Below, one piece after another: positions 35,620 to 43,492 of a DNA stretch of 64,000 nucleotides. The DNA is from Thermoleophilum album. GTDB lineage: Bacteria > Actinomycetota > Thermoleophilia > Solirubrobacterales > Thermoleophilaceae. The notes under the pieces are model-generated. The model searched no databases. It had not been told where the DNA came from and saw nothing but the letters and a program-made list of their open reading frames with translations. Location: the NCBI RefSeq assembly GCF_028867705.1, contig NZ_CP066171.1:1054001-1118000 (forward strand), written 5' to 3'. The first letter of the stretch is position 1. Every line of letters starts with the position of its first letter. The position numbers and the translations under genes were made by a program.

Positions 35620-35686
35620 GCCGCCAATCCCGGCGGCAATCTTCGCGTGACGACGCGAGCGAGCGCGGCGATCCTGCCTCGCTCAG
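35620..35686 (-). terminator. Hairpin cluster between hflX and dut
   Basis: Three potential stems lie in 67 nt: GCCGCC/GGCGGC (35620-35637), CGCGT/ACGCG (35644-35657), and a 7-bp GAGCGAG/CTCGCTC pairing that includes the hflX stop region. No T tract follows, so this is a candidate factor-assisted terminator or insulator between hflX and the dut promoter. Confidence 0.35.
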
Positions 35687-37044
35687 GCCGGGGCAAGACC
35701 TGGGCGTGGCACCTCTCGACTCTCCAAGCGGTGTCCGTTGCGCGACGAGTCTTGCGCGGCGGCCGAACAGTCGAGACGGTACGGCGCGAAGCGCGCCGCC
35801 ACCTGCTTGGGGACACGCGCGCGCACGTGCACCCCCTCGGCGGTGTGGTTCTGCTCTACCTGGCCCGCAAGCGCGAACAGCTCGGCGAGGCGAGCTCCCT
35901 CGCGATAGGGCAAGAACAGTTCGACGGCTTCGAGACCTCGCGCAAGCTCGGCTGCGATCCGTCGGCGGAGCTGTTCCAGGCCCTCGCCGCTCTCGGCCGA
36001 GACCGCGACGGCGCGCGGCCAGCGGCGGCGCAGCGCCCGGCTGGCGGTGCTCGAAACGAGGTCGATCTTGTTGAAGACGAGCAGGCGCGGACGCTCGGCA
36101 GCGCCGATCTCCTCGAGCGTCCGCTCGACCGCCGCGAGCATCGCCGCGAGCTCTGGCTCTGGAACAGACGCGTCCTGGACGTGCAGCACCAGGTCGGCGC
36201 GACGTGTCTCCTCGAGCGTCGCCGCGAACGCCGCCACCAGCTGGTGAGGCAACTTGCGGATGAAGCCGACGGTGTCGGTGAGCAGATAGGTGCGGCCGTC
36301 GATGCGAAACGCTCTCGTGGTGGGATCGAGCGTGTGGAAAAGCCGCGAGCGGACGCTGACGCCCGCACCAGTCAGCGCGTTCATGAGCGTCGACTTACCG
36401 GCATTGGTGTAACCGGCGAGCGCGATCGTCGGCAGCGCTGCGCGCTCGCGCTCGGCGCGCATCGTGGCGCGCACACGCTGGATGTGCGCGAGCTTGCGCT
36501 TGATCTCGCTGATGCGATCGCGCGCCAGCCGCCTGTCGGTCTCGATCTGGCTTTCGCCTGGGCCACGCGTGCCGATCCCGCCGCCGAGCCGCTCGAGGTG
36601 GGTCCACAGGCCGCGCATCCGCGCGAGGTTGTACTCGAGCTGGGCGAGCTCGACCTGCAGCTTGCCCTCGGCCGTGCGCGCGTGGCGCGCGAAGATGTCG
36701 AGGATGATGGCGGTGCGGTCGACGACCGCCAGCCCAGTGGCGGCCTCGATGTTGCGCTCTTGCCGCGGCAGAAGCTCGTCGTCGCAGGCGATAACGTTGG
36801 CCCCGAGTTCGCGCGCTCGCTCGGCGAGCTCGGCGAGCTTGCCGCGCCCGAGGTAGCGGTCGGGGTCGGGGCGCTCGCGCCGCTGCCATAGCTCCCCGGC
36901 TACCGCCACGCCCGCGGTGCGCAACAGCTCGCGCAGCTCCGCGAAGTCCGGCTCGTGCGGGGCCGCTGCGATGCAGATCGCCCGTTGCCGCGCGCGGGGG
37001 TTGCGGATGCCCTCGCCGAAGCGCGTCTCGCGGCGGTCCTGCAT
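35683..37044 (-). CDS. hflX: Ribosome-associated GTPase HflX
   Basis: A 453-residue GTPase that splits stalled 70S ribosomes under stress in E. coli. The N-terminal HflX domain includes GRGKLAELAE and GTRGPGESQIETDRRLARDRI; the G domain shows GYTNAGKSTL (G1), DTVGFIRKLP (G3) and NKIDLV (G4). ATG 37044 has AGGAGG 3 nt upstream, and a TACACT box (37059-37054) abuts that SD. It starts a transcription unit 97 nt after the DUF429 gene. Confidence 0.95.
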   Translation of the reverse strand: MQDRRETRFGEGIRNPRARQRAICIAAAPHEPDFAELRELLRTAGVAVAGELWQRRERPDPDRYLGRGKLAELAERARELGANVIACDDELLPRQERNIEAATGLAVVDRTAIILDIFARHARTAEGKLQVELAQLEYNLARMRGLWTHLERLGGGIGTRGPGESQIETDRRLARDRISEIKRKLAHIQRVRATMRAERERAALPTIALAGYTNAGKSTLMNALTGAGVSVRSRLFHTLDPTTRAFRIDGRTYLLTDTVGFIRKLPHQLVAAFAATLEETRRADLVLHVQDASVPEPELAAMLAAVERTLEEIGAAERPRLLVFNKIDLVSSTASRALRRRWPRAVAVSAESGEGLEQLRRRIAAELARGLEAVELFLPYREGARLAELFALAGQVEQNHTAEGVHVRARVPKQVAARFAPYRLDCSAAAQDSSRNGHRLESREVPRPGLAPA

Positions 37045-37141: not shown

Positions 37142-37855
37142 TCAGTGGAGGAGCAACCGCTCGACCACCGGCACGAGCGCGCGCTGATCGAAGGCGGCGA
37201 GCGCCTCGCGCCCCGGCAGCACGACCACCCCTTCGCTGCGATCACCGAGCTCGATCGCGTTGTCCGCCAGCGCCTCGAAGGCGCAGAGCGCGCACGCCAC
37301 CGCCTCGATCTCCTCGATACGCCGGTCCCACGGCGACCCACCACGGAAGCGCACGGCGGCGTGGCCGAGCGCCTCGATCCGCGCTCGCACGCCGAAGGGG
37401 TGCCGCCGCGCCGGCACGCGGGCGCCGAGCAGACGTGCGAAGACCGCGTCGGGAACGGTCTCGCAGAGGAAGCCGCGGTACGCCGTGCCCGCACCTGCCC
37501 TTGCGCCCTCCGCCCCCTTCTCGAGCCGCGCCAGGTCGGCCACCGCCGTCACCCAATCGCGCTCCGCGCCGGCGGGAAGTCGCGGGTTGGGGCGGATACC
37601 GACTTTCGCAAGCTGGCGGTCGCAGAGGCGCTCGCCGACCGCCGCCGGCCCAGGCGGCGGCAACCTGAACCCGCACGCGACAGCCGCGGGGGCGAGAACT
37701 GCGAGCTCGCGGCGCACAGCCTCGGCGCGTCCCGGCTCGAAGGTGAGGGCATCGAGCGCACCTGATGCAGCGCCAAGCCGCTGCTCGACGATCGCGAGCT
37801 GGAGCAGCGAACCGAAGGGGACGATCCCGCAGGCGAGAAGCGGTCGCGCGGTCAC
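37142..37855 (-). CDS. DUF429 family protein (predicted RNase-H-fold nuclease)
   Basis: A 237-residue protein matching DUF429. The C-terminal block EIEAVACALCAFEALADN with GDRSEGVVVLP is characteristic. The family is predicted to adopt an RNase H fold, but no member's reaction is well established. Its N-terminus begins with a strand (LLACGIVPFG) that departs from the usual G-x-D start, so a catalytic Asp may be missing there. It sits 15 nt after dapL and is probably in the same operon. Confidence 0.65.
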   Translation of the reverse strand: MTARPLLACGIVPFGSLLQLAIVEQRLGAASGALDALTFEPGRAEAVRRELAVLAPAAVACGFRLPPPGPAAVGERLCDRQLAKVGIRPNPRLPAGAERDWVTAVADLARLEKGAEGARAGAGTAYRGFLCETVPDAVFARLLGARVPARRHPFGVRARIEALGHAAVRFRGGSPWDRRIEEIEAVACALCAFEALADNAIELGDRSEGVVVLPGREALAAFDQRALVPVVERLLLH

Positions 37856-37870
37856 GCCACAGCGCGCCGA

Positions 37871-39034
37871 TCAGCCGAGCGACTCGCGCATCCGTTCGAC
37901 CGCTTCCAGCAGCCGCTCGTCGGGCACGGTCAGCGAGATGCGGAAAAAGCCCTCGCCCGCCGCGCCGTACGCACCGCCCGGCGATACGACCACACCGGCG
38001 CGCTCGAGCACGTGTTCGCACCAGCTCGCGGCGTCGGCGAACCCGTCGGGAACGGGCGCCCACACGTAGATCGTCGCGCGCGGCCGTTCGACCGCGACGC
38101 CGATGCGCTCGAGCGCGTCGCACACGAGGTCGCGACGCCGCTGGTAGAGCTCGGACATCTGGCGGGGGAACTCGCGCAGCTCGCCAAGCGCGGTGACGGC
38201 AGCGAGCTGCACCGCCTCGAACATTCCCGAGTCGATGTTGGTCTTGAGCTTCCAGTAGGTGGCAACGGCGTCGCGGTTGCCGACGATCGCGGCGACACGC
38301 CAGCCTGTCATGTTCCAGCCCTTGGAGAGCGAAAAGACTTCGACACCGACGTCGCGAGCACCGGGCGTCGCGAGGAAGCTGGGCGCTTCGTAACCGTCGA
38401 AGCACAGCTCGGTGTACGAGGCGTCGTGGACGACAAGCAGCTCGTGCTCGCGAGCGAACTCGACGACGCGCTCGAAAAAGCCGGCGGGCGCGACCGCCCC
38501 GGTCGGGTTGTTCGGGTAGTTGAGGTAGAGCAGCCGTGCGCGGCGTGCTATCTCGGCCGGCACCGCATCGAGATCGGGAACGAACCCGAGCTCGGGCACG
38601 AGCGGCAGCGGGTGCGCCTCGGCACCGGCGAGCAACGGCCCGCCCGTGTAGACGGGATAGCCGGGGTCGGCGGCGAGCGCCAACGTGTCCGCATCGAGGA
38701 ACGCGAGATTGAGGTTGAAGATGCACTCTTTAGCGCCGAGCGCGGGAACGATCTCGCTCTCGGGGTCGAGCTCCACACCGAAGCGCCAGCGATAAAAGTC
38801 GGCGACCGCCGCCCGGAACTCGCTGCGGCCACGGTTCGTCGGATAGCGGTGCGTCGCCGGGTCGCGCGCCGCCGCCGCCAGCGCGTCGACGACAGCCGCC
38901 GGCGTCGGGGTGTCGGGGTCGCCGATGCCCAAGCTGATTACGTCGACGCCCGCGCGCCGCTTCTCCTCGATCTTGCGTTCGAGCTCGGCGAACAGGTAGG
39001 GCGGCAAGCGGTCAAGCCGCACGCTCGCTCTCAT
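37871..39034 (-). CDS. dapL: LL-diaminopimelate aminotransferase-type PLP enzyme
   Basis: A 387-residue class I/II aminotransferase. The N-terminus RLPPYLFAELERKIEEKR and ISLGIGDPDTPTP are typical of the DapL family, which converts tetrahydrodipicolinate directly to LL-diaminopimelate with glutamate, bypassing DapC/D/E. YPNNPTGAVAP, HDASYTELCFDG and the PLP lysine in SLSKGWNMTGWR are visible. The ATG overlaps the dapF stop (ATGA); coupling to dapF strongly supports the DAP role over a generic aspartate aminotransferase. Confidence 0.88.
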   Translation of the reverse strand: MRASVRLDRLPPYLFAELERKIEEKRRAGVDVISLGIGDPDTPTPAAVVDALAAAARDPATHRYPTNRGRSEFRAAVADFYRWRFGVELDPESEIVPALGAKECIFNLNLAFLDADTLALAADPGYPVYTGGPLLAGAEAHPLPLVPELGFVPDLDAVPAEIARRARLLYLNYPNNPTGAVAPAGFFERVVEFAREHELLVVHDASYTELCFDGYEAPSFLATPGARDVGVEVFSLSKGWNMTGWRVAAIVGNRDAVATYWKLKTNIDSGMFEAVQLAAVTALGELREFPRQMSELYQRRRDLVCDALERIGVAVERPRATIYVWAPVPDGFADAASWCEHVLERAGVVVSPGGAYGAAGEGFFRISLTVPDERLLEAVERMRESLG

Positions 39035-39960
39035 CGTCCTTTCACCTCCTGGCCGGTTTCGGGGCTGCCGTCCCTGGCGTCGGTGCGAGCGTCGACGCCG
39101 TCCTCGCCGCGCTGCGACGCAGCCCGCCACAGACGCAGGCGGAAGTCGTCGCTGAGCTCGGCGCGGAAGAGCGGGCGCGCCCAGCCGTGGAGGTCGACGT
39201 GCAGGTCCTCCCCGATGTCGACCTGGAGCTCGCCACCGTCGAGCACCACTCGCACCGGGCTGTCGACGCCGCGCAAAACGGCGGCGACAGCGGCGCCGGT
39301 GGCGCCTGTGCCCGACGACCGTGTCTCCCCCACCCCACGCTCCCAGATGCGTGCCCGGATCGTACGCTCGTCCAGCCGTCGCCAAAACGACACGTTGGTG
39401 CGATTGGGAAACAGCGGGGCGTTTTCGATCGCAGAGCCGACCTCGGCGAGGTCGAGCGACTCGAGCTCCTCGCCGACCTCGATCGCACACTGAGGGTTAC
39501 CGACGTCGACGAACTGGAAGCGCCAGCTGCGACCGGCCGCGACCAGTTCGCCGCGCCCGTCGCGCGCGCCGCTCGGGTACGCGTCGCTCGCGAGGCGCAC
39601 ACGGCCGATGTCCATCGAGCACGTCTCGGGCCCGGTGATGCGCGCCCTGATCTCGCCTGCGGCGGTCGTGACGGAGAAGGCGTCGTGGGCGGCCAGACCG
39701 CGGCGGCGGATGTAGATCAGCGCCTGGCGGACACCGTTCCCCGACAGCTCGGCCTCGGAGCCGTCGGGGTTGAAGATCCGCAGATGCGCGACGGTGGCGC
39801 GCTCGCGAGGCGGTTCGATGAGGACGACGCCGTCGCTACCGATTCCCTCGTGGCGGTCGCAGAGCATGCGCACGACCGCGGGCGCCAGCGCGAACGGCAG
39901 CGCTCGCTGCTCGACGATCAGGTAGTCGTTGCCAAGCGCGTGCCACTTCTCGAGCTGCAC
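39031..39960 (-). CDS. dapF: Diaminopimelate epimerase homologue with Ser at both catalytic Cys positions
   Basis: A 309-residue DapF-fold protein expected to convert LL- to meso-diaminopimelate. Length, the KWHALGNDYL start, NPDGSEAEL and the GVGETRSSGTGATG loop are family features. In known DapF enzymes one catalytic Cys lies in a C-G-N-G motif (Cys73 of Haemophilus) and the other in an A-C-G-T-G motif (Cys217). Here both are serine: SGNGVRQ with Ser73 and SSGTGAT with Ser216. The codons are TCG and TCG, so no single-base error creates both. GTG 39960 lies 11 nt after miaA. Context in the dapL operon says DAP metabolism; whether it epimerises is open. Confidence 0.85.
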   Translation of the reverse strand: MQLEKWHALGNDYLIVEQRALPFALAPAVVRMLCDRHEGIGSDGVVLIEPPRERATVAHLRIFNPDGSEAELSGNGVRQALIYIRRRGLAAHDAFSVTTAAGEIRARITGPETCSMDIGRVRLASDAYPSGARDGRGELVAAGRSWRFQFVDVGNPQCAIEVGEELESLDLAEVGSAIENAPLFPNRTNVSFWRRLDERTIRARIWERGVGETRSSGTGATGAAVAAVLRGVDSPVRVVLDGGELQVDIGEDLHVDLHGWARPLFRAELSDDFRLRLWRAASQRGEDGVDARTDARDGSPETGQEVKGR

Positions 39961-39971
39961 GGCGCGGCACT

Positions 39972-40928
39972 CTATCCGTGCTCGCGGCGACGCAGCTGCG
40001 CGAGGATCCGCTCCGCCGCCCGCTCGGCGTCGAGGTCGGTGACGTCGACCGTGGCGAGGTCCGGAAGCTTGCGCAGCCACGTCAGCTGCGCCTTGGCAAG
40101 CCGCCGCGACTGCCTTTTCAGTCCCTCCAGATCGCCGCGCAGCACCTCCTCGAAGCCGATTGCTTGCCGCGCCGTGCGCGAGGCGCCGGCGGCGTCGGCA
40201 GCGACAACCTCGTCGCGTGCGCGGGCGAAGATGCGTTCAGCGCGTCGACCGATCCGCTCGTAGAGGTTCTCGCGCGCCATCACTACCCCCACGAGCACGG
40301 TCGGCAGCCGCGTTTCGCGGGTCCACAGACGGTTGCGCCCCGTGCGTACGGGCTCGGGGTTCACCCCCATCGCCAGGAGCTCGAGGGCGCGCACGATGCG
40401 GCTGCGGTCGCGCGGTGGTATCCGTGCGGCGAGTGCAGGCGCGCGCGCTGCAAGCTCGCGGTGGAGCTCCTCGGGGCCATGCTCGGCGAGCCGCGCTTCG
40501 AGCGCCGCGCGAAGGCCGGGTGGCGGGGCGGGCCGGAGATCGAGCTCGCACAGGGCGGCGCGTACGTACAGCCCGGTTCCGCCGACGACGATCGGCGTGC
40601 GGCCGCTCTCCAAGGCTGCGTCGACCGCCCGGTGGGCGAGCGGCATGTACTCGCCGACCGAAAAGGTGCGGGTAACCGGGACGAACGAGACGAGCTGGTG
40701 GTCGAGCTGGCGTCGCTCGGCTGGCGTCGGTGCCGCGGTGAGCGTTTCGAGGCCGCGGTACACCTGCATCGCATCGGCCGAGATCGCGACCGGGTCCTCG
40801 CCGAGAGCGCGCAGCCTCGCGGCGAGTGCGATCGCGAGCTCGGTCTTTCCCACCCCGGTGGGACCGAACAGCGCGATAACCGGTCGCCGGCGTCGCGCCG
40901 GGTTCACCGCGCGCTGCGTGGTCGTCAC
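39972..40928 (-). CDS. miaA: tRNA dimethylallyltransferase
   Basis: A 318-residue enzyme that adds a dimethylallyl group to N6 of A37 in tRNAs reading UNN codons. The P-loop is GPTGVGKTELA; SADAMQVYRGL, VVGGTGLYVRAAL and RQAIGFEEVL are family blocks. The product is the substrate of MiaB, encoded two genes away on the same strand. The GTG overlaps the stop of the baeRF gene by 4 bp. Confidence 0.96.
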   Translation of the reverse strand: MTTTQRAVNPARRRRPVIALFGPTGVGKTELAIALAARLRALGEDPVAISADAMQVYRGLETLTAAPTPAERRQLDHQLVSFVPVTRTFSVGEYMPLAHRAVDAALESGRTPIVVGGTGLYVRAALCELDLRPAPPPGLRAALEARLAEHGPEELHRELAARAPALAARIPPRDRSRIVRALELLAMGVNPEPVRTGRNRLWTRETRLPTVLVGVVMARENLYERIGRRAERIFARARDEVVAADAAGASRTARQAIGFEEVLRGDLEGLKRQSRRLAKAQLTWLRKLPDLATVDVTDLDAERAAERILAQLRRREHG

Positions 40929-42097
40929 TCGGCCGCGGCCGGCGGCGGAGGCGGCGGGAAGCGCAGTTCCGCTGCCACCAGCTGCTCGCGCAGAGGCGTC
41001 TCGACCTCAATGTGCTCGACAGTGCCCTGTTGGGCAATGACCTCCTCGGCCAGGTCATCGAGCACGTCGGGCACCGCCACCGTCGCGGTGTCGCACAGCG
41101 GGCAGCGCTCGCCCGCGCGGCCGAGCCACCCGCAGCTGGGGCAGCGCACACCCGCAGCGCTCCCCGAGCCGTCCACCACCAGCAGACCGATGGCGCCGAC
41201 AGACCCCGCCCAGAGGCAGGCGTCGAGACCGGTGACGGCGCCGTTGCCGCGTGCCGCTTCCGCCAGCACACGCTCGACGAGCTCGCGCTCCTCGCGCTCC
41301 TCGTAGCGACGCGCCGCCTCTTCGGCCGCCTGTTGCAGCTTGCGCGGATCGACGTTGTCGAGGTCGACAGCGAAGGTCGCGGCGACGCGCGCACGCAGTC
41401 GCGGCGAGAGGAAACGGACGAACTGCCTCACCTCGTGCTCCTGCCCACCCACCAACAGCAGCTCGATGTCGCGCAAGCGAACCACCTGCTCGAGCTCCTC
41501 GGCGACGGCACGAAAGTGGCGGTGAGCTAGCTGCTCGGCGCGGTTACGAACACGGTGCTCTTCGAGCCCGTACCAGCCGGCGAAGTCGCGCTTGCGAAGG
41601 TGCTCTGCGTCGAGCTCCGCCGTCGGCTTGAACTCGCCCGCGAAAAGCTCCCAGAGCTCGGCGCGCCGGCGGTCGAGGACGACGACGCAGTAGCGGTGGA
41701 ACGCGTCGAGCTGTGCCAGCAGTGGCCGCAGCCAGAGCGACTTGTCGACCACAGCGCGGTCGCGCACGCGACCGGGCAGCCGCACCCGCTCGAAAAGGCC
41801 GGCTCCCGAGCAGGCGAAGATAGCCAGCGCCGGCGGTTCGGGGAGCTCGCGCGCCACCGCTTCCTCTATGCGAGCTATGTCATCGCGCAGCGACAGACGC
41901 TGCTCGTGGTCGAGGCGCTCGTGGTCCTTGACGAGCTGGCGCGCCTCGGAGAGCAGGCTGTTCACCCTGCTCGCCACGCGTTGGCGCTCGTTGGGATCGG
42001 TCGGGACGGCGACGTACAGAGACAGGGTGGGCAAGCCCCCGCTGTCGAAAGCGACCAGCTTCTCGACCGTATGTGGTTCGAGCGTCGTGACCTTCAC
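40925..42097 (-). CDS. Bacterial archaeo-eukaryotic release-factor-like (baeRF) protein with Zn ribbon
   Basis: A 390-residue protein with eRF1-like architecture. Residues 20-130 match the N-terminal domain (LPTLSLYVAVPTDPNERQR), 130-200 the middle domain (YCVVVLDRRRAELWELFAG with a loop at 171-186, DFAGWYGLEEHRVRNR), 205-310 the C-terminal domain, and a zinc ribbon has C319, C322, C332, C335. In eRF1 and Vms1 the middle-domain loop carries the GGQ/GSQ catalytic glutamine; here no Gln is at that position, only E179/E180. The family is predicted to act on peptidyl-tRNA or stalled ribosomes. Placement between miaA and miaB supports a translation role. Start GTG 42097. Confidence 0.7.
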   Translation of the reverse strand: MKVTTLEPHTVEKLVAFDSGGLPTLSLYVAVPTDPNERQRVASRVNSLLSEARQLVKDHERLDHEQRLSLRDDIARIEEAVARELPEPPALAIFACSGAGLFERVRLPGRVRDRAVVDKSLWLRPLLAQLDAFHRYCVVVLDRRRAELWELFAGEFKPTAELDAEHLRKRDFAGWYGLEEHRVRNRAEQLAHRHFRAVAEELEQVVRLRDIELLLVGGQEHEVRQFVRFLSPRLRARVAATFAVDLDNVDPRKLQQAAEEAARRYEEREERELVERVLAEAARGNGAVTGLDACLWAGSVGAIGLLVVDGSGSAAGVRCPSCGWLGRAGERCPLCDTATVAVPDVLDDLAEEVIAQQGTVEHIEVETPLREQLVAAELRFPPPPPPAAAE

Positions 42098-42136: not shown

Positions 42137-42158
42137 CGGCGCCCGCTAGTGGGCGCCG
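42137..42158 (-). terminator. 8-bp GC hairpin spanning the miaB stop codon
   Basis: CGGCGCCC (42137-42144) pairs perfectly with GGGCGCCG (42151-42158) around a 6-nt loop. The miaB TAG (42148-42146) lies in the loop. No T tract follows. It could attenuate between miaB and the baeRF gene or protect the miaB 3' end. Confidence 0.4.
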
Positions 42159-43492
42159 CCGCCGAGGCGGGCTAGGAGCACTTCCTCACCGGCCAGGGTG
42201 GTGCTAGTGGCGGAGCCTATACGCACCTGTGCGAACTCGCCGGGGCTGGCGATCCCGTCGAAGTTGACGGTTTTGTTGTGGCGGGTGCGGCCGCGCAAGC
42301 GGTCGGGATCGGTGCGCGACGGTCCCTCGACGAGGACCTCGAGCGTGCGCCCGACGAAGCGCTGCGCCCGCTCGCGCGCCACTTTCTGGGTGAGGTCGAC
42401 GAGCCGCTGCATCCGCTCGCGCTTCACTGCGTGCGGCACCTGGTCGGGCATCGTCGCCGCCTCGGTGTCGCGGCGTGGCGAGAAGATGAAGGTAAAGGCG
42501 CCGTCGAACCGGACCTCCTCGACGAGGCTGAGGGTCTGTTCGAAGTCCTCTTCGGTTTCGCCCGGGAAGCCGACGATGATGTCGGTGGTTATCGCGCAGT
42601 CGGGGACCAGCTCCCGGATCATCGCCACGCGATCGAGGTAGCGCGCGCGGTCGTAGGTTCGTCGCATGCGCTTGAGGACGCGGCTCGATCCCGACTGGAC
42701 CGGCAGGTGGATGTGCTCGCACACGCTCGGCAGCTCGGCGTGCGCGCGCACGACGTCCTCGCGAATGTCTTTCGGATGCGGGCTCGTGTAGCGGATGCGC
42801 TCGATACCCTCGATCGCGTCGAGCCGCGCCAGAAGCTCGGCGAACGTGGTGCGCTGCGAGCGGTCGAGATCGCGGCCGTACGAGCACACGTTTTGGCCGA
42901 GCAGCGTGATCTCGCGCACACCGTCGGCGGCGAGGCGCTCGACCTCGGCGACGATCTCGTCGGGCGGCCGCGAGACCTCACGACCGCGCGTCTGCGGCAC
43001 GATGCAGTAAGCGCACACACAGTTGCAGCCTTGCGAGATCTGCACCCACGCCTGGAAGGGGCGTGTGCGCGCTGCCGGCAGGTGGGCGGAGAAGTCCTCG
43101 AACTCGAAGAAGCCGGCCTGCGCTTCGAGCGAGTCCTGCAACAGCACCTCGCCGAGCTTGTGGATCTGCCCAGGACCGAACGCGACGTCGACGAACGGAA
43201 AGAGCTCGAAAACCTGCTCGCGCATCGACTGCGCCCAGCAGCCGCCGACAGCGACGATTCGGTCAGGTCGCTCCGCCTTGAGGCGTTTAGCCTCGCCGAG
43301 GTGGCCAATGAAGCGCTGGTCGGCAGACTCCCGGATCGAGCAGGTGTTGAACAGGATCACGTCAGCCTCGGCACGAGTCGGCGCCTCTTCGTAGCCGAGC
43401 GCGCGGAGCATCCCTTTGATGCGCTCCGAGTCATGCTCGTTCATCTGGCAGCCGAAGGTCGTGAGGTGGAAGGTGCGCGCCGCGCGTGCCAT
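42146..43492 (-). CDS. miaB: tRNA-2-methylthio-N6-dimethylallyladenosine synthase
   Basis: A 448-residue radical-SAM methylthiotransferase that converts i6A37 to ms2i6A37. The auxiliary cluster cysteines are in TFGCQMNEHD, FNTCSIRES and VGGCWAQ; the radical-SAM C-x3-C-x2-C is in GCNCVCAYCIVP. A C-terminal TRAM domain (ARERAQRFVGRTLEVLVEG) follows. The ATG at 43492 lies 9 nt after TATCCT with no SD. Confidence 0.97.
   Translation of the reverse strand: MARAARTFHLTTFGCQMNEHDSERIKGMLRALGYEEAPTRAEADVILFNTCSIRESADQRFIGHLGEAKRLKAERPDRIVAVGGCWAQSMREQVFELFPFVDVAFGPGQIHKLGEVLLQDSLEAQAGFFEFEDFSAHLPAARTRPFQAWVQISQGCNCVCAYCIVPQTRGREVSRPPDEIVAEVERLAADGVREITLLGQNVCSYGRDLDRSQRTTFAELLARLDAIEGIERIRYTSPHPKDIREDVVRAHAELPSVCEHIHLPVQSGSSRVLKRMRRTYDRARYLDRVAMIRELVPDCAITTDIIVGFPGETEEDFEQTLSLVEEVRFDGAFTFIFSPRRDTEAATMPDQVPHAVKRERMQRLVDLTQKVARERAQRFVGRTLEVLVEGPSRTDPDRLRGRTRHNKTVNFDGIASPGEFAQVRIGSATSTTLAGEEVLLARLGGGAH

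Follow-up and report, generated by a model that had tools for sequence, protein, structure and literature searches.

Can diaminopimelate (DAP) epimerase, DapF, operate without the two cysteines that carry out its chemistry? DapF is the textbook case of thiolate deprotonation of an unactivated α-carbon (Cα), with two cysteines placed at helix N-termini on either face of Cα and a closure of the enzyme which expels water. The question is raised by the dapF gene of Thermoleophilum album (Thermoleophilia, Solirubrobacterales) in the 64,000-nucleotide stretch analysed here, hereafter called the window (contig NZ_CP066171.1, positions 1,054,001 to 1,118,000 of the forward strand, with window position 1 being the first nucleotide). 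This gene codes for serine at both catalytic positions, and from comparison of sequences we consider it likely that its product is a working DAP epimerase without thiols, which would still interconvert LL-DAP and meso-DAP, the latter a key amino acid of the cell wall. The rule that this reaction needs a thiol pair thus probably has natural exceptions.

A DapF with serines at both catalytic positions

The dapF gene (39031..39960, minus strand) has an open reading frame from 39960 to 39034 with a GTG startcodon, encoding 309 amino acids, followed by a TGA stopcodon at 39033-39031. The protein scores 203.8 bits with the NCBIfam model TIGR00652 (cut-off 114.65) and is matched by the Pfam family PF01678 in two stretches. 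Translation, alignment with solved DapFs and a 322-row alignment confirmed the placement given in an earlier, sequence-only reading of this DNA: Ser73 (codon TCG, 39742..39744, minus strand, within GSEAELSGNGVRQA) replaces the first catalytic cysteine, and Ser216 (codon TCG, 39313..39315, minus strand, within VGETRSSGTGATGA) replaces the second. The same reading also counted Gln79, directly after the GNGVR motif, as the loss of a usual cysteine, but this was mistaken, as the position is non-catalytic and, among Cys/Cys relatives within the class, is usually occupied by Met or Ile. The PROSITE active-site signature (N-x-[DN]-[GS]-[SENGFT]-x(4)-C-[GI]-N-[GA]-x-R, as quoted in PMC8225329) does not match the window protein, which has serine at the cysteine position in NPDGSEAELSGNGVR.

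The AlphaFold (AF2) model of the window protein (mean predicted local distance difference test score, pLDDT, 93.1; predicted template modelling score, pTM, 0.87) has the DapF fold with its two pseudo-symmetric domains. The top solved structure by Z score is the O-ureidoserine racemase DcsC (7vdy, Z 36.5, 32% identity), with the DapF structures scoring nearly as high at Z 35.4 (Anabaena enzyme; 9mro, root mean square deviation 2.1 over 268 residues). The DcsC score is about that of true DapFs; the gene adjoining the window dapF is dapL, which belongs to the DAP pathway. The best matches further include the C73S and C217S mutants of Haemophilus influenzae DapF (2q9h and 2q9j, TMt 0.89 and 0.88), which have the same fold but are laboratory mutants with a single engineered serine, whereas the serines of the window protein are both natural and conserved. 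The residues with a role in DAP binding (roles taken from PMC5296763 and PMC12039745) are all present (N11, N64, G74/N75, N155, N189, E207, R208, G217 and T218), and are conserved at 99-100% in 157 dapF genes of the order and at 97-100% in Cys/Cys genes. When compared with the known DapF enzymes of H. influenzae, Corynebacterium glutamicum and Anabaena, the window protein is therefore alike in family score, fold, DAP-binding residues, and operon and pathway neighbours, but differs in both catalytic cysteines, in lacking the active-site cysteine of the PROSITE signature, and in the changes H157Q, E191S, V205I and A222G. Family score, fold, binding site and gene position all identify it as a DapF, although it lacks the defining catalytic residues and the signature; we describe it as a DapF variant that probably acts as DapF does, without claiming membership by activity.

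The four changes listed above are nearly fixed in the second shell of the order's Ser/Ser DapFs, together with a small residue (Ala) at position 80. Ile205 accompanies Ser216 in 40/42 rows of the tree and in 9/9 further genes, while Cys216 is accompanied by Val or Thr in nearly all cases. This pairing comprises four independent contrasts, nearly all in the same direction, a number which cannot reach significance, and it suggests co-evolution of V205I with Ser216. Position 205 (window codon 39348-39346), with Val or Thr alongside Cys216 and Ile alongside Ser216, is a candidate for a compensatory second-shell change.

Fixation of the serine pair in the order

The sequence-only reading had treated the serine pair as the puzzle of one gene and proposed a survey of the Thermoleophilia DapFs. 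That survey showed that the serines are real but are no peculiarity of a single gene: all 157 distinct dapF genes of the order (Solirubrobacterales/Thermoleophilales) are Ser/Ser, with serines coded by both TCN and AGY codons. One further sequence (L204) is Ser/Gly, and the sole Cys/Cys sequence met in a genome of the order (L260) is a distant second match with 32% identity, located on a short contig in a single draft assembly. The sister lineages of the class are Cys/Cys with the exception of one Ser/Cys gene (L293), and have the same neighbours (miaB, miaA, dapL and hflX). In the phylogenetic tree the order's Ser/Ser genes group into a single clade within mainly Cys/Cys Thermoleophilia DapFs (supports of 100 and 96). 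Because of the shared neighbours and the single nested clade, we conclude from the sequences that the window dapF is the class's ordinary dapF, passed down vertically and still in its normal operon, and that serine replaced both cysteines in the order's ancestor and was then retained.

Several other explanations were rejected. Sequencing error, chance or a single odd gene are contradicted by the agreement of 157 distinct genes using both types of serine codon, and both the operon position and the tree contradict a recent horizontal gain of an odd paralogue in the order. The order's dapF genes have a median ratio of nonsynonymous to synonymous substitution rates (dN/dS) of 0.21, which indicates purifying selection and excludes a pseudogene. 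A general loss of cysteines in these bacteria is contradicted by the glutamate racemase MurI of relatives, which keeps both catalytic cysteines in 28 of the 30 genes read.

Independent Ser/Ser and mixed DapFs

A second, separate Ser/Ser clade, with the motifs EKSGNGLRIF and ASGSSSS, has members in several phyla. In the Aquificota, where DapF is single in 61/61 genomes, eight of the 50 genes read are Ser/Ser genes of this second clade and 42 are Cys/Cys, and similarly, in the genus of Flavobacterium panacis, which has a single-copy DapF, two of the 30 genes read belong to the second clade and 28 are Cys/Cys. Within both groups, Ser/Ser and Cys/Cys genes thus take each other's place as a genome's sole DapF. 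A second-clade Ser/Ser gene accompanies a Cys/Cys gene in Neobacillus cucumis and in two cyanobacteria.

Mixed forms were found in other families of the Actinomycetota, in single copy in the genomes listed, either as Cys/Ser (L303, L304, L315, L319 and L325) or as Ser/Cys (L268, L280 and L293), with one Cys/Ser and one Ser/Cys gene seen at the normal miaB-miaA-hflX position. Altogether the tree requires a minimum of five changes per catalytic position, and rather than being the oddity of one gene, the replacement is fixed throughout an order and recurrent outside it. Two genomes with two DapF matches (G263 and G371) contain a second, Ser/Ser DapF paralogue with the motif SATGA (L322 and L323, respectively); L323 lacks the DAP-binding Asn at position 155 and may have another function.

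Routes to meso-DAP

The genome containing the window (2,112,804 bases in one contig, 95.7% complete) was searched for a second DapF or a meso-DAP dehydrogenase, as the sequence-only reading had advised. No second protein of the DAP_epimerase family is present in its 2,112,804 bases, and no meso-DAP dehydrogenase was found in it, so that a second DapF was rejected for this genome. DapF is present in 177 of the 183 genomes of the order, normally in single copy and with second matches in few. A meso-DAP dehydrogenase scored over the cut-off in only 2/183 genomes of the order, and was rejected as a bypass; none scored over the cut-off in a set of 12 genomes, most of them with serine-bearing DapFs and including G063 and G065.

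The window genome does contain LysA, the enzyme that decarboxylates, and thus needs, meso-DAP. The peptidoglycan of Conexibacter woesei, a member of the order, contains meso-DAP, and meso-DAP has been reported for members of the order, with its detection in Solirubrobacter deserti as a further example (PMC10722151). Solirubrobacter taibaiensis has one DapF, which is Ser/Ser.

Genomic context

The gene order miaB-miaA-dapF-dapL-hflX is common to Ser/Ser and Cys/Cys Thermoleophilia, and dapL directly follows dapF in most loci compared. In the window all five genes are on the minus strand. The dapL gene (37871..39034), encoding LL-diaminopimelate aminotransferase, scores 532.7 bits with NF006756 (cut-off 507), and the stopcodon of dapF overlaps its startcodon in an ATGA with AGGAGG directly upstream, in agreement with the coupling to dapL noted from the sequence alone. 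Of the conserved upstream neighbours, miaA (39972..40928) scores 142.7 bits with TIGR00174, slightly below the cut-off of 148.65, and is over the cut-off with PF01715, while miaB (42146..43492) scores 510 bits with TIGR01574; the conserved downstream neighbour hflX (35683..37044) scores 428 bits with TIGR03156.

Two further genes are located between these, also on the minus strand. The one between dapL and hflX (37142-37855) encodes a 237-amino acid protein without a Pfam or NCBIfam match, which is recognisable at the corresponding locus of several relatives, with 35-44% identity. The one between miaB and miaA (40925-42097) encodes a protein of the baeRF type, with a relationship to families of ribosome hibernation factors at scores below the NCBIfam cut-offs.

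As a side observation, MurI (TIGR00067) was not found in either genome of the window genus (G000, which contains the window, and G001) or in five genomes of genus g19, while most relatives in the order have one. Candidate sources of D-glutamate in the window genus would be a D-amino-acid transaminase or a MurL route. The bifunctional DapF of Chlamydia is likewise a DapF homologue in a genome without a recognised MurI, but the window protein scores only 56.9 bits with its model (NF038284, chlamydial bifunctional DapF/glutamate racemase, cut-off 350), which places it outside that family. Two MurI proteins of relatives (L444 in G042 and L445 in G033) have serine in place of the second catalytic cysteine (GSTHYP versus GCTHYP), which is an analogous natural Cys-to-Ser replacement in another racemase family.

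Proposed mechanism and alternatives

As the serines occupy the places of the cysteines and the carboxylate-holding residues are kept, Ser73 and Ser216 are probably the acid/base pair of the epimerase. The substrate would be bound in the usual DapF manner: G74/N75 and G217/T218, at the N-termini of two helices, would hold the reactive α-carboxylate between them, and N64, N155, N189, E207 and R208 would hold the far end of DAP. Ser73 and Ser216 would then be on opposite faces of Cα, one accepting and the other donating a proton in a closed, water-free site, which the second-shell changes (V205I, H157Q, E191S, A222G and Ala at position 80) would retune for hydroxyls. On balance we favour, with some reservation, a cofactor-free and metal-free amino-acid epimerase in which a pair of serine hydroxyls takes the Cα proton without a thiol, and which would have evolved separately in at least two lineages, i.e. 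the Solirubrobacterales and the multi-phylum clade represented in, among others, the Hydrogenothermaceae and some Flavobacterium; mixed Ser/Cys forms occur as well. A plausible advantage is suggested by the C. glutamicum DapF, which is shut down by an oxidative disulfide between its two cysteines (PMC5296763); a Ser/Ser enzyme would be immune to such inactivation.

Several points weigh against a working Ser/Ser epimerase. The pKa of serine is far above that of cysteine, and to our knowledge a natural Ser/Ser DapF has been assayed nowhere. The choice of the base residue follows from position alone, the family searches cover known families only and would be escaped by a non-homologous epimerase, and the cell-wall data are for Conexibacter and Solirubrobacter, with none found for the window's own organism. 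Finally, PddB keeps less than 0.1% activity when Cys is mutated to Ser, and the same paper (PMC8225329) cites this for Mycobacterium tuberculosis DapF as well. This last objection is softened by the further near-fixed changes carried by the natural enzymes, and by the existence of a natural Ser-Cys 4-hydroxyproline 2-epimerase of the same fold, with Ser93 as catalytic residue (PMC4113996). This enzyme, Avi_0518 of Agrobacterium vitis, is a member of the proline racemase superfamily and uses a natural serine in 1,1-proton transfer, but it has only one serine of the pair and another substrate, and is distant in sequence (4lb0, the structure of an A. vitis hydroxyproline epimerase, has 16% identity and Z 24.4 against the window model).

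Among the three options left by the sequence-only reading (the enzyme uses serines, has changed function, or meso-DAP comes from another route), the use of serines is the best supported, on genetic and comparative grounds, and the other two are disfavoured. The near inactivity of single Cys-to-Ser mutants of characterised relatives, together with the restriction of the searches to known families, would fit a window protein that still binds DAP and has little or no epimerase activity, with meso-DAP supplied by an unrecognised, non-homologous epimerase or racemase (e.g. a pyridoxal phosphate-dependent enzyme) elsewhere in the genome. We regard this as unlikely, as a protein of that kind agrees poorly with strong purifying selection, completely fixed serines, DAP-binding residues conserved throughout the order and retention of the operon with dapL. 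Such another route is further disfavoured because neither a second DapF nor a meso-DAP dehydrogenase is available, and because Ser/Ser stands in for Cys/Cys as the sole DapF in other phyla; as the same hidden enzyme would be needed in several phyla, the Ser/Ser protein is a much simpler source of meso-DAP.

It appears improbable that the protein has come to catalyse another reaction or to act on another substrate, as a different amino-acid racemase or by an elimination, with its placement in the DAP pathway as a relic. Enzymes of the DapF fold do switch substrate, as in the histidine, O-ureidoserine and 2,4-diaminobutyrate racemases, dehydratases are found among the serine-bearing proteins of the proline racemase family, the O-ureidoserine racemase is the top match by Z score (albeit with DapFs nearly equal), and the window genus has no recognised MurI. 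However, the residues holding the far end of DAP are 100% conserved in the order, the operon with dapL is kept, and most relatives in the order that share this DapF possess a normal MurI. Least credible of all is that the epimerase is not needed and DapF is free to decay, with LL-DAP used in the wall and lysine imported or made otherwise: dapL does make LL-DAP and some actinobacteria have LL-DAP walls, but meso-DAP in Conexibacter and Solirubrobacter already contradicts this for those two genera, LysA is present in the window genome, and the dN/dS values give no sign of decay.

Implications for the DapF family

No description of a natural Ser/Ser DapF was found in the literature searched, which lacked most subscription journals. 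Annotation pipelines name such proteins DapF and leave the loss of the catalytic residues unflagged. DapF is also a long-standing antibacterial target which is attacked through its cysteines, and if a whole order does make meso-DAP with a Ser/Ser enzyme, these organisms would escape DapF inhibitors that react with thiols, and the thiol pair would not be obligatory. The natural series of Cys/Cys, Cys/Ser, Ser/Cys and Ser/Ser DapFs, with a swap from Cys/Cys to Ser/Ser inside one genus, would then offer evolved enzymes, instead of crippled ones, in which to test what each residue contributes to the mechanism.
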